Shown piece after piece: positions 2,511-43,180 of a stretch of 64,000 nucleotides of DNA. The position numbers and the translations under genes were made by a program. The notes beneath the pieces were generated by a model, which was not told the DNA's origin, made no database searches, and worked only from the letters and a program-made list of their open reading frames with translations. How positions within the stretch are numbered: the stretch's first letter is position 1; each line of letters starts with the position of its first letter. Origin of the DNA: Halobacterium noricense (GTDB lineage: Archaea; Halobacteriota; Halobacteria; Halobacteriales; Halobacteriaceae); the NCBI RefSeq assembly GCF_021233435.1, contig NZ_CP089468.1, positions 930,001 through 994,000 of the forward strand. The letters are read 5' to 3'.

Positions 2511-4049
2511 ATGTGCTCAGGCTTCCTTCCTGAGGTAATGCCTGTTGGGGACTGGAGCGAGGAATTTCGTAGCCGAACGATTCGCGTTCTCCACGCCGAC
2601 AGCGACGAGACGTTCGCCTCGCTCACAGCCTCCTACCTCGAACGAGGGACGGACCGGTTCGAAGTCACGCACACGGTGACGCGCGAAGACACCGTCGACG
2701 CGCTCTCGACGGCGGACGTCGACTGCGTCGTCTCCGCGTACACGTTCCCCGACGGGAACGGCATCGAACTCCTCAAGCGCATCCGCGAAGCCCATCCGCG
2801 ACTGCCGTTCATCCTCTACACCGGCAAGGGCAGCGAGGAAATCGCCAGCGACGCCATCTCCGCCGGCGTCACGGACTACATCCAGAAACGCGCCGGTGCC
2901 GAACAGTACGAAGTGCTCGCCAACCGCATCGAGAACGCCGTCGAGAAATGCCGCTCCGAGCGCGAACTCGCGGACCAAAACCGCCGCCTCGCAACGCTCA
3001 TCACCAACCTCCCCGGGATGGTGTACCGCTGCGAGAACGACCCCGGCTGGCCGATGGAGTTCGTCGGCGGCGAATGCGAGCAACTCAGCGGCTACGACGC
3101 CGCCGCGCTCGAACGCGGCGACGTCCGCTGGGGCGAAGACGTCATCCACCCCGACGACCGCGGGTCGGTTTGGGCGACCGTTCAGACGGCTATTGCTGAC
3201 GAGCAGTCCTTCGAGGTCACGTACCGCATCCGGACTGCCGACGGCGACCGGCGGCACGTCTGGGAGCGCGGCCGCGGCGTCCCCGACGAGAACAGCGACG
3301 TCGTGGCCATCGAGGGGTTCATCACGGACGTCACCGAGCACGTCGAACGCGAACGCGAACTCCGCCGCCAGCGCAACCGCCTCGACGAATTCGCGTCCAT
3401 CGTCAGCCACGACCTCCGAAACCCCCTGAACGTCGCTGACGGCCGCCTCGAACTCGCTCGCGACGACTGTAACAGCGAACATCTCGACGACGTCGCCGCC
3501 GCCCACGACCGCATGGCGGCGCTCATCGACGACCTGCTCGCGCTCGCGCGGTCGGACGCCGCCATCACCGACCCCGATAGAGTGTCGCTACACGACGTCG
3601 CGACGGACTGCTGGAGGAGCGTCGAGACACCCACGGCGACGCTGCGAGTCGACGGCGAAACGACGGTGTTCGCGGACCGCTCGCAGCTCCGCCGGCTCTT
3701 CGGGAACCTGTTCCGGAATGCTGTGGAACACGGTTCCACAGACCCCCAGAACGCGAAGCGTTCTGAGGATGCCGTCGAACACGGCTCGGCGCAGTCCGAC
3801 GACTGCGTCACGGTCCGTGTCGGCGACCTCGACGACGGCTTCTACGTCGAGGACGACGGCCCAGGCATCCCCGCCGGCGACCGCGAGCGCGTCTTCGAGT
3901 ACGGCTACTCGACGGACGACCGCGGAACCGGCATCGGGCTCAGCATCGTCGCGGAGCTCGTGGACGCCCACGGCTGGAGCATCGAGATTACTGACGGCGA
4001 AACGGGCGGGACGCGCTTCGAAATCACGGGCGTCGAAACCGCGGACTAG
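2511..4049 (+). CDS. Hybrid sensor histidine kinase: receiver-PAS-HisKA-HATPase, with palindromic insert
   Basis: A soluble 512-residue signalling protein. Residues about 22-140 form a response-regulator receiver, 160-290 a PAS fold, about 295-360 the HisKA dimerisation domain with phospho-acceptor His in SIVSHDLRNP, and 370-510 the HATPase (N-box NLFRNAVEHG, G1 DDGPGIP, G2 GTGIGLS). In the receiver the usual phospho-Asp (haloarchaeal VVSDY) is Ala (VVSAY, Ala76, codon 2736-2738), so it is unlikely to be phosphorylated normally. Directly after the N-box an extra segment repeats AVEHGS and coincides with two DNA hairpins (3721-3765). ATG 2511 is placed for a near-leaderless message; ATG 2538, just after GAGGT, is an alternative start. 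Confidence 0.9.
   Translation: MCSGFLPEVMPVGDWSEEFRSRTIRVLHADSDETFASLTASYLERGTDRFEVTHTVTREDTVDALSTADVDCVVSAYTFPDGNGIELLKRIREAHPRLPFILYTGKGSEEIASDAISAGVTDYIQKRAGAEQYEVLANRIENAVEKCRSERELADQNRRLATLITNLPGMVYRCENDPGWPMEFVGGECEQLSGYDAAALERGDVRWGEDVIHPDDRGSVWATVQTAIADEQSFEVTYRIRTADGDRRHVWERGRGVPDENSDVVAIEGFITDVTEHVERERELRRQRNRLDEFASIVSHDLRNPLNVADGRLELARDDCNSEHLDDVAAAHDRMAALIDDLLALARSDAAITDPDRVSLHDVATDCWRSVETPTATLRVDGETTVFADRSQLRRLFGNLFRNAVEHGSTDPQNAKRSEDAVEHGSAQSDDCVTVRVGDLDDGFYVEDDGPGIPAGDRERVFEYGYSTDDRGTGIGLSIVAELVDAHGWSIEITDGETGGTRFEITGVETAD
3721..3765 (+). repeat. In-frame 45-nt double-hairpin insertion in histidine kinase gene
   Basis: Two perfect inverted repeats stand in tandem: CTGTGGAAC/GTTCCACAG (3721-3729 and 3733-3741, loop ACG) and CAGAACGC/GCGTTCTG (3747-3754 and 3758-3765, loop GAA), separated by 5 nt. 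The unit is 45 nt and keeps the frame. The flanking codons for (N/D)AVEHGS occur at 3717-3737 and again at 3768-3788, so the protein carries an N-box-like duplication 17 codons apart. The same hairpin-5-hairpin layout and total length occur in the nitrite reductase gene at 30413-30457. Confidence 0.8.
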
Positions 4050-29773: not shown

Positions 29774-31597
29774 ATGGCACACAAGAAAGAAGAGTGGAAG
29801 GCCGAGCAGTACGGTGACGAAGTCAGAGCACGGCTCGAGGAGTTCGCCGAGCGCGGTTGGGAGGCGATTCCCGAGGAGGAACACGACGAGTGGTTCTCCC
29901 GGTTCAAGTTCTGGGGGGTGTTCCACCAGCGCGGCGGCCAGGAGAGCTACTTCATGATGCGGTTGACCAACTGCGGCGGCGTCCTCGAACCCGACCAACT
30001 CCGGGCCATCGGCGAGGTCGCCCGCGACTACGCGCAGGGGCCCGCCGAGAACCCCGAATTCGGGAACGGGTGGATCGACCTCACGACCCGCCAGTCCATC
30101 CAACTGCACTGGCTCAAACTCGAGGACATCCCCGAAATCTGGGAGAAACTCGAAGCCGTCGGCGTCTCCTCGCGCTCGGCGGGCGGGGACACGATGCGCA
30201 ACATCTCGGGCTGTCCGGTCGCCGGGAAAGCAGAGGAGTACGTCGAGAGCCGCGAACTCCTGGACGAGATTCAGGACGGCATCCGCGGGGACGACGACCT
30301 CGCGAACATGCCCCGGAAGTTCAACATCTCGGTGACGGGCTGCCGGCAGGGCTGCGCGCAGGACGCGCTCAACGACATCGGCCTCGAACCCGCGCACAAA
30401 TTCGTCGACACCGATGAGCAGAGCTCATCGAGCAATCGGGAATCACAGATTCCCGATAATGGGGAGGAGGTCGAGGGCTTCAACGTCCGCGCCGGCGGCG
30501 GGCTCGGCGGCCGCGAGCCTCGCGCCGCACGCCCGCTGGACATCTTCGTCACGCGCGACCAGGCCTACGACACCGTTCGCGCGTTCGTCGAACTGTACCA
30601 CGAGGAGGGCAACCGCGAGAACCGCTCGAAGAACCGCGGGCGCTTCTTCGTCGACGAGTGGGGCACCGACGAGATTCGCGAGGCGCTCGACGAGCGCCTG
30701 GATTTCGACCTCGAATCCGCGGGCACCGACTTCCGCGGCGAGTACACGTACAACGCCGGCAAGCCGTCCGAGCGCGGCGCACACGACCACGTCGGCGTCT
30801 ACGACCAGACGGACGGGCAGAACTACGTCGGAATCAGCGTCGCCCTCGGGCGGCTGCGCGCCGACGAAGCAATCGAACTTGCGGACCTCGCCGACGAGTA
30901 CGGCAGCGGGGAAGTCCGCTTGACGCGCCGGCAGAACCCCATCATCACGGACGTCGCGGACGAGGACCTCGACGACCTGCTCGCGGAGCCGCTGCTGGAC
31001 AAACACGAGCCCGAGCCCAACCCCTTCGAGCAGGGCGCGATGGCCTGCACGGGCACGGAGTTCTGCTCGCTCGCGCTCACGGAGACGAAGGCGCGGATGG
31101 CGCGGTTGCTGCGCTGGCTCGGGGACAACGTCGAGGTCCCCGACGACGTCGACCGCATCAAGATGCACTTCTCGGGCTGCACCGCGGACTGCGGGCAGGC
31201 GATGACCGCGGACATCGGCCTGCAGGGGATGCGCGCACGCAAGGACGGCGAGATGGTCGAAGCTGTCGACGTCGGCGTCGGCGGCGGCGTCGGCGAGGAG
31301 CCGACGTTCATCGACTGGGTGCGCCAGCGCGTTCCCGCCGACGAACTCCCGGGAATGATTGCGAACCTCGTGCGGGCGTTCGCCGCGCTCCGCGAGGACG
31401 GCCAGACGTTCCGCGAGTGGGTGGAGGCGACCGGCCACGAGACTATCGTCGAACTCGCGGAACCCGAGGAAGTCGAGGGGTACACCGACCCCTGCCTCTA
31501 CGACGCCAAGCAGTCCTGGTACCCGTTCGCGGAGGGAGACAGTCCGGCACCGACCGCCCCAGACGGCACGCCGCTGGCCACCGAGAGCGATGACTGA
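29774..31597 (+). CDS. nirA: Ferredoxin-dependent nitrite reductase (siroheme/4Fe-4S)
   Basis: A 607-residue assimilatory nitrite reductase that reduces nitrite to ammonium using ferredoxin. The duplicated nitrite/sulfite-reductase fold is clear. The siroheme/4Fe-4S cysteines lie in ACTGTEFCSLA (C-x5-C, about residue 424-430) and SGCTADCGQ (C-x3-C, about 469-473). NISGCPVAGK and NISVTGCRQGCAQD are the first-half equivalents. Residues about 213-228 (DEQSSSSNRESQIPDN) are absent from the otherwise conserved line GLEPAHKFV...GEEVEGFNVR and come from a double-hairpin insertion (30413-30457). The stop overlaps the start of a 32-aa ORF. In Haloferax the gene is nasD. Confidence 0.92.
   Translation: MAHKKEEWKAEQYGDEVRARLEEFAERGWEAIPEEEHDEWFSRFKFWGVFHQRGGQESYFMMRLTNCGGVLEPDQLRAIGEVARDYAQGPAENPEFGNGWIDLTTRQSIQLHWLKLEDIPEIWEKLEAVGVSSRSAGGDTMRNISGCPVAGKAEEYVESRELLDEIQDGIRGDDDLANMPRKFNISVTGCRQGCAQDALNDIGLEPAHKFVDTDEQSSSSNRESQIPDNGEEVEGFNVRAGGGLGGREPRAARPLDIFVTRDQAYDTVRAFVELYHEEGNRENRSKNRGRFFVDEWGTDEIREALDERLDFDLESAGTDFRGEYTYNAGKPSERGAHDHVGVYDQTDGQNYVGISVALGRLRADEAIELADLADEYGSGEVRLTRRQNPIITDVADEDLDDLLAEPLLDKHEPEPNPFEQGAMACTGTEFCSLALTETKARMARLLRWLGDNVEVPDDVDRIKMHFSGCTADCGQAMTADIGLQGMRARKDGEMVEAVDVGVGGGVGEEPTFIDWVRQRVPADELPGMIANLVRAFAALREDGQTFREWVEATGHETIVELAEPEEVEGYTDPCLYDAKQSWYPFAEGDSPAPTAPDGTPLATESDD
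30413..30457 (+). repeat. In-frame 45-nt double-hairpin insertion in nitrite reductase gene
   Basis: Two perfect inverted repeats stand in tandem: GATGAGC/GCTCATC (30413-30419, 30423-30429, loop AGA) and ATCGGGAATC/GATTCCCGAT (30435-30444, 30448-30457, loop ACA), separated by GAGCA. Total 45 nt, frame kept. Arm sequences differ from those at 3721-3765, but layout (3-nt loops, 5-nt spacer, 45-nt total) is identical. It encodes a hydrophilic Ser/Asn/Gln stretch, unlike the rest of the enzyme, between two conserved segments and probably in a surface loop. Confidence 0.8.
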
Positions 31598-42472: not shown

Positions 42473-43180
42473 ATGTCCGAGTCGGACGCCGCGTACACGC
42501 TCAACGACGTCACCGTCGTCATGGGAACGTACAACGAGGAAGCCGCAATCGCGACCGTCCTCGAAGACATCGACGATGTCACCGACGGCCGCACGGACGT
42601 CGTCTGCGTCGACAGTTCGTCCGACCGAACGCCCGAAATCGCACGCGAGCACGGTGCTCGCGTCGTCGAACAGGAACCGCTCGGCTACGGCGTCGCCGTC
42701 CGCTCGGCGCTGTACGAGGCCGACACCGAGGTCGTCGTCACGACCGACTGCGACGACACCTACCCGATGGAGCGCATCCCGGACTTCCTCGAATACGTCA
42801 ACGAGGGCTACGACGTCGTCAGCGGCGACCGCCTCTACTGGGGGGCCGACGAGATGCCCGCCGTCAATCGCCTCGGCAACGCCACGTTCGCCGCCATCGC
42901 GTCGCTGTTCGTCGGCGAGCACGTCCACGACACCACCACGGGGATGCGCGCGTACCGCCGCGACGTCATCGAGGCCATCGACTGGACGCAGAACACCGGT
43001 CTCTCCGCGGAACTGCTGATTCGGCCGCTCTGCCGGGACTACGACGTCGTCGAGGTCCCCATCGAGTACGACGAGCGCCTCGGCGAGACGAAACTCGATC
43101 CGCTGGAGGGTGGCGCCGAAATCATGGGCTCGATTCTGAAGGTCTGTGCGGAGGAACGGCTGGGCGGGCTGCTCGCGTAA
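42473..43180 (+). CDS. Glycosyltransferase family 2 (dolichyl-phosphate sugar synthase-like)
   Basis: A 235-residue soluble GT-A enzyme without membrane helices. VVMGTYNEEAAIATVLEDID and VVCVDSSSDRTPEIA bind the nucleotide sugar, TTDCDDTYPMERIPDFL holds the metal-binding Asp motif, and TTTGMRAYRRDVIEAID with the ENTGLSAELLIRP-like segment is acceptor-side. The family includes AglJ-type enzymes that load sugars on dolichyl phosphate for N-glycosylation. It converges with the GT39-like membrane glycosyltransferase gene, which supports a joint role in surface glycan assembly. Confidence 0.85.
   Translation: MSESDAAYTLNDVTVVMGTYNEEAAIATVLEDIDDVTDGRTDVVCVDSSSDRTPEIAREHGARVVEQEPLGYGVAVRSALYEADTEVVVTTDCDDTYPMERIPDFLEYVNEGYDVVSGDRLYWGADEMPAVNRLGNATFAAIASLFVGEHVHDTTTGMRAYRRDVIEAIDWTQNTGLSAELLIRPLCRDYDVVEVPIEYDERLGETKLDPLEGGAEIMGSILKVCAEERLGGLLA

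Follow-up and report, generated by a model that had tools for sequence, protein, structure and literature searches.

The window, the whole 64-kb stretch of the Halobacterium noricense genome (G000) analysed here, contains two unrelated genes that each carry a 51-nt palindromic insert. The host genes, their elements and the parts of these are as follows (R1 and R2 are covariance models described below; G-numbers denote genomes and L-numbers loci).

2511-4049, forward strand: histidine kinase, host gene 1 (response regulator, PAS_3, HisKA, HATPase_c; from Pfam and the open reading frame)
3721-3771, forward strand: 51-nt palindromic element in the kinase N-box loop (R1 and R2; 51-nt indel against G010)
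3721-3741, forward strand: kinase hairpin A, 9-bp stem, 3-nt loop, CTGTGGAAC-ACG-GTTCCACAG
3747-3765, forward strand: kinase hairpin B, 8-bp stem, GAA loop, CAGAACGC-GAA-GCGTTCTG
3720-3737 and 3771-3788, forward strand: AVEHGS-coding copies 1 and 2, spacing 51 nt
3772-3804, forward strand: probable remnant of a further unit, AVEHGSAQSDD (weak R1 match, 17.6 bits, E 0.1)
29774-31597, forward strand: ferredoxin-type assimilatory nitrite reductase nirA, host gene 2 (Pfam NIR_SIR; PDB relatives)
30411-30461, forward strand: 51-nt palindromic element of nirA (filled in G010; site empty in G004, in G002 and in other genera; R1)
30412-30430, forward strand: nirA hairpin A, 8-bp stem, CGATGAGC-AGA-GCTCATCG
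30435-30457, forward strand: nirA hairpin B, 10-bp stem, ATCGGGAATC-ACA-GATTCCCGAT

The kinase hairpins are separated by a 5-nt spacer, the element together with a flanking codon reads AVEHGSTDPQNAKRSED, and the predicted insert peptide contains VEHGSTDPQNAKRSED; in nirA the spacer is the 4-nt AGCA and the predicted peptide contains DTDEQSSSSNRESQIPDN. An earlier note on this DNA had reported the double hairpins, which are real. Its stem lengths stand for the kinase (9+8 bp), but the nirA stem given as 7 bp has 8, and the spacer there is 4 nt rather than 5. It had also given both structures a length of 45 nt. Measured against empty orthologues the inserted unit is 51 nt in both genes, so the agreement at 45 nt is fortuitous and depends on where the stems happen to end; elsewhere in the family 45 nt is the commonest unit length.

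At 3-nt loops, stems of at least 7 bp and spacers of 3-6 nt, these two pairs are the only ones in the 64 kb. Could they have arisen by chance? Third-order Markov windows of 64 kb contain no hairpin pair in 150 replicates, and no synonymous-codon shuffle within either host gene keeps its pair (0/2000 for the kinase, 0/2000 for nirA). Simulation gives no such structures, and a chance origin is ruled out by both nulls. Under relaxed settings, 464 kb of the window genome hold 12 hairpin pairs, versus 0 in shuffled sequence. A lone 9-bp hairpin with a 3-nt loop (ACGCGAGCACGGTGCTCGCGT) stands at 42643-42663 without a partner.

Close relatives provide the empty sites. The G010 orthologue of the kinase gene lacks the 51 nt, and exactly 51 nt are absent at the insert position from nirA of G004, whose protein is 98% identical, and of G002; in relatives the segment does not appear written in non-palindromic codons. 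The nirA of G010 has the element, with one pair of hairpin B changed on both sides (T-A to C-G) and a different loop. Tobacco nitrite reductase has no counterpart of this stretch, aligning 4 residues to query residues 210-234. The nirA site is filled in G000 and G010 and empty in G002 and in G004, the nearest of the four genomes to G000. Such a pattern takes one precise loss or more, or else another insertion or the transfer of a short segment; a precise loss would also fit IS605-type excision. The nirA of G029 (L025) has a single in-frame TAG exactly at the insert loop of the window NirA (LEDGD*VTGFNV).

Sibling kinases of the window genome carry zero (L004, L007), one (L002) or two (L003, L006, L010) tandem units of 16-17 residues each, all at one point after the N-box. 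Three of them have in common a near-identical 49-nt stretch, CTGTGGAACAYGGTTCCACAGACCCCCAGAACGCGAAGCGTTCTGAGGA, although this region is only about 50-80% identical among the kinases of the set. Simple gene conversion between kinase paralogues is ruled out, since inserts also occur in unrelated proteins; the kinase copies could have spread partly by this route. In the N-box the unit follows AAC-G; it has GACG at its end, and its first hairpin re-encodes AVEHGST. The AVEHGS repeat on either side had been likened to a target duplication. The repeat itself is real, but this reading of it is uncertain, because its spacing is the period of the element-encoded tandem unit and a non-coding filled/empty pair shows no duplication. 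The residue preceding VEH agrees between both copies in 38 of 48 kinases, which could reflect target duplication, N-box selection, or both. With a first hairpin that encodes the AVEHGS residues it displaces, the N-box loop would be a safe and repeatedly used site.

Insertions of this kind extend to other genes. Syntenic regions of about 400 kb from G000, G010 and G002 and a 199-kb contig of G004 (about 1.4 Mb, four genomes) were aligned, and all indels of 24-150 nt were listed; genomes entered the analysis as stretches. The commonest length is 51 nt, and filled and empty orthologues are seen in at least 11 unrelated genes. Besides those of the kinases and NirA, filled/empty alignments place the following clean in-frame inserts, host names that lack a Pfam call being our reading of the sequence.

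NAD-kinase-like protein: 60 nt
C-terminus of the protein at G002:815414: 60 nt
Adenylate-kinase-like protein: 51 nt
Trm5-like protein: about 111 nt
Aldehyde-dehydrogenase-like protein: 48 nt
NAD epimerase: 45 nt
Protein at G000:926380: 48 nt

Compared with random segments of the same genomes, 13 of the 35 insertions with in-phase coding flanks form hairpins at p<0.05, where 1.8 are expected, and 8 do so at p<0.01; the inserts at G000:1118558 and G000:870875 have degraded hairpins or none. A third element type (ASSEGxSPSDRSSGRSPREDGE) is found in a Trm5-like methyltransferase of one species (G010:C1:1158734, L089) and in an endonuclease III-type (HhH-GPD) protein of another (L254, G000:C1:519829-519871).

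Are the two window elements related? Their arms had been called unrelated, a view that the covariance models overturn. R1 was built from 21 N-box units out of 80 haloarchaeal kinase loci in several dozen genera, all of them kinase inserts and none from the window's genus. Within that genus it picks up the insert of the epimerase (E 1e-11), that of NirA in G010 (E 9e-8) and the element of the window kinase (34.8 bits, E 1.7e-6), each match spanning the exact indel length, and with filters off it matches the window nirA element (31.5 bits). One model thus fits both window elements, which also share sequence signals, so the kinase and NirA elements are kin. Of 59 genomes of the order, 35 have R1 matches, and the non-kinase hosts include HerA, acyl-CoA carboxyltransferase, DUF302 and zincin proteins. 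Different element copies occupy one protein position in HerA of G000 and G067 (L252, L273) and one site in the acyl-CoA carboxyltransferases of three families (L269, L271, L281); these shared positions point either to hot spots of repeated insertion or to inserts of great age.

Hairpin B of the kinase element leads to a second family. As CAGAACGC-NNN-GCGTTCTG it occurs at 15 sites in G000 with at most one mismatch (control 0) and in 9 of 13 congeneric genomes, its loops varying freely. Once the copies are aligned in one orientation, it often forms the right half of a 56-60-nt element, TTCGGAAGACG..CGTCTTCCG-CAGCCCA-TCAGAACGC..GCGTTCTGAGGACG. The model of this class, R2, has 49 matches in G000 at E<0.001 and finds matches in 28 of 40 genomes of the order; its hosts include TruD, two MinD-like ATPases, a DUF84 NTPase, and DsbH-type, GNAT and DUF2070 proteins. 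The window kinase element is matched by R2 as well (41.5 bits) and thereby bridges both families. These two related families, of 45/51 nt and 56-60 nt, lie in frame in unrelated proteins and also between genes, and together they are present in most of the haloarchaeal genomes sampled. Intergenic arrays of four to six consecutive triloop hairpins (CGAGAGAC, CGGAAGACG and TCAGAACGC types) are seen at L057:14387-14499 and L064:16247-16682.

Could the palindromes instead have formed locally, with no mobile element? Template switching during replication (quasi-palindrome formation) would then have made them in surface loops that tolerate them, and slippage would have expanded the tandem units. The kinase and adenylate-kinase hairpins do include or adjoin duplicated host sequence, and stems stay perfect while loops vary freely. 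However, near-identical 56-60-nt elements are spread over many genomes, between genes as well as within unrelated ones, and the model trained on kinases from other genera also detects inserts in unrelated proteins. Template switching is an unlikely explanation, already disfavoured by the dispersed copies.

A different possibility is that selection acts on the protein: the peptide would be functional, for example as an acidic loop or one that is phosphorylated, and codon choice would produce the DNA hairpins incidentally. One reading frame is indeed reused across many hosts (QNAxRSED, SxSxRTxSGD), and the composition is hydrophilic and halophile-like. The stems speak against it. In alignment A2, 98% of cells pair and 11 pairs have changed in both partners, and a shift of one side by a single column lowers pairing to 29-44%; alignment A3 gives 98.9% pairing, with 8 pairs changed on both sides. 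Perfect hairpins were the criterion by which A2 was chosen, which biases its pair counts, so the test was repeated on all VEH.S sites, picked by protein alone, with a permutation that keeps the relatedness of the kinases in. The third bases of Val and Ser (V3:S3) pair at 65 of 82 sites, against 34.9 expected and a maximum of 51 over 20,000 permutations; for Glu and Gly (E3:G3) the figure is 57 of 73 (33.2 expected; best permutation 49). These third codon positions are largely synonymous, and the covariation of the kinase stems at them identifies the conserved object as nucleic acid, not peptide. Non-coding copies retain the stems of the coding ones. With synonymous positions pairing far above chance, the same stems outside coding sequence, and no synonymous shuffle keeping a hairpin pair, peptide selection appears highly improbable. 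A known RNA family is ruled out, Rfam having no match above gathering score in the 64-kb window.

A conserved nucleic acid could also act as an mRNA element that is bypassed or spliced, leaving the segment untranslated (as in translational bypassing elements or archaeal bulge-helix-bulge introns), and both the strong coding-strand hairpins and the choice of conserved proteins as hosts are in line with this. Frame and length, however, are as translation demands. R2 copies with coding flanks on both sides are in phase in 10 of 11 cases, and 28 of the 35 coding indels in the survey are multiples of 3; there are no internal stops and no Rfam match, which leaves very little probability for an untranslated segment. 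One 58-nt copy with coding-like flanks (L316, G001:C1:1927195-1927252) is out of phase, its gene possibly broken by the insertion. Coding elements of the 56-60-nt class are mostly 60 nt and several non-coding copies 56-58 nt; in one coding copy a stem A shortened by 2 nt goes with a stem B lengthened by 2 nt, the length still being 60 nt.

A view of the ends comes from a repeated non-coding element of about 490 nt in G004, of which two copies have a 56-nt insert (L113, L158) and two related copies are empty (L157, L159). GGCG^GGGCC becomes GGCG-TTCG...GAGGACG-GGGCC without duplication: a host tetranucleotide is followed by an element that brings its own GACG. Of 25 R2 copies, most have NRCG as left site and 20 have GACG as right end; R1 copies have GACA/CACG-like left sites and right ends that are mostly GACG. 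Insertions thus follow a host RCG, end in GACG and lack a clear target duplication.

Dispersed copies, empty sites in close relatives, covarying stems, the kept frame of coding copies and the site preference agree with the earlier proposal of a palindromic element tolerated in frame, and on this comparative evidence the window segments are very probably copies of a haloarchaeal superfamily of small mobile palindromic elements. Its unit has 45-60 nt, two perfect hairpins with 3-nt loops, a conserved spacer of 4-8 nt and a GACG end, and inserts 3' of a short RCG-type host site. An in-frame insert that lands in a surface loop would be retained and translated as a hydrophilic loop of 15-20 residues, exposed on the surface and probably devoid of a selected function of its own in most hosts. 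The remaining copies lie between genes or within the ends of IS605-type elements.

What would move such elements? They carry no gene, so movement would be in trans. IS605-type elements move as single-stranded DNA, have palindromes near their ends and use a target oligonucleotide of 4-6 nt without duplication (PMC3119063, excerpt), and the site rule and hairpins found here agree with this chemistry. The mobiliser could be an IS200/IS605-type (HUH, Y1) transposase handling single-stranded hairpin DNA, a reading that we place just short of an even chance; hairpin perfection might then be kept by transposase recognition, by hairpin-templated repair, or by both. Genes for TnpB or TnpA lie near 5 of 49 R2 loci, versus 7 of 141 windows of the window genome. 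This overall association is weak, so the mobiliser can only be inferred, and strong tnpB linkage is rejected as a proof of it. The window genome has six Y1_Tnp matches, and none of the same double hairpins were found at its Y1 loci. In congeneric genomes a hairpin pair with the shared hairpin B, GACGAGACGC..GCGTCTCGTTCGCACAC-CAGAACGC..GCGTTCTGGGGACG, lies directly upstream of tnpB genes (L135, L150, L143, L128) and possibly represents the left end of IS1341-type elements. Removal of the element at L320 and L322 restores a perfect TCCCACGGCTAAAGCCGTGGGA palindrome; L322 adjoins tnpB and is a TnpB-linked copy that splits an IS605-type end palindrome. Such a palindrome is restored on joining the flanks in 2 of 53 R2 copies, most copies being elsewhere, and as a general target it is rejected. 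Three R2 copies (L319, L336, L339) lie, judging by eye from TnpB-like C-terminal words, apparently within the 3' part of tnpB genes or immediately behind it.

In the way they work, the elements resemble Rickettsia palindromic elements (RPE) and the CGTC-tagged REPs, which are likewise short, gene-less palindromic repeats, both intergenic and in frame in unrelated conserved proteins, with several families per genome, frequent paired hairpins and no known dedicated transposase (PMC10969869, PMC3733652). The CGTC REPs carry CGTC at one end by an 8-9-bp stem; here GACG is its other strand (20/25 R2 copies), by a hairpin B of 8-10 bp. Every comparison includes features that do not clearly match here. 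RPEs are bacterial and about 100-150 nt, whereas the present elements, compared with them by description and not by sequence, are haloarchaeal and 45-60 nt; CGTC REPs are single 8-9-bp hairpins with 4-5-nt loops and AT first stem pairs, unlike these double hairpins with 3-nt loops and stems starting TCAG or CGGA.

Within haloarchaea, SMR-A and SMR-B of Haloquadratum walsbyi are also gene-less, with inverted repeats and no target duplication, and they are reported to insert into near-terminal palindromes of IS605-type elements, as the L320 and L322 copies appear to do (PMC3119063, excerpt). Unlike the present elements, SMR-A has about 110 nt and SMR-B goes down to 80 nt, and protein insertion is unmentioned for them in that excerpt; one Haloquadratum genome has only 5 R2 matches. 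PATEs and other non-autonomous IS200-IS605 (IS1341) elements share the subterminal palindromes, the short target oligonucleotide and the lack of target duplication, but PATEs are generally longer, with unrelated interiors between the end palindromes, whereas here the two hairpins are the whole element (same excerpt). Set beside SMRs by description, not by sequence, the elements may be kin of haloarchaeal SMRs and PATEs. Like IS200/IS605-type elements they have a fixed short host site on the left (NRCG) and an element-borne right-end tetranucleotide (GACG). A hairpin-B/spacer pair stands directly upstream of tnpB (L135, L150), a transposase link that is statistically weak.

Bacterial REP/BIME-REPIN systems with RAYT resemble them in that the mobile unit is paired hairpins and an HUH-type enzyme is suspected; the tag is GTAG there and GACG/CGTC here, and no RAYT-like partner gene was found beside the copies. 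Bacterial REP/BIME elements are mostly extragenic. A 2025 survey of bacterial and archaeal REPs concerns intergenic regions, and the word stem 'halo' is absent from its text (PMC12306157). Searches of the open-licence literature gave no account of such inserts in haloarchaea, an earlier one elsewhere being possible, and the large double-hairpin family is apparently undescribed.

It is possible, rather than probable, that an order-wide superfamily of 45-60-nt double hairpins moves as folded single-stranded DNA via IS200/IS605-type enzymes, gives a standing source of in-frame loops in Archaea, and re-inserts harmlessly in kinases, where the hairpin encodes the AVEHG of the site it splits. The finding would extend to Archaea the phenomenon of mobile palindromes that add protein sequence, at dozens of copies per genome, on the evidence of filled and empty orthologues in close relatives and of insertions in conserved enzymes. 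It also offers an explanation for the AVEHGSTxxRTxSGD repeats of haloarchaeal histidine kinases. Haloarchaea are genetically tractable, which makes movement, excision and cost of the elements testable.
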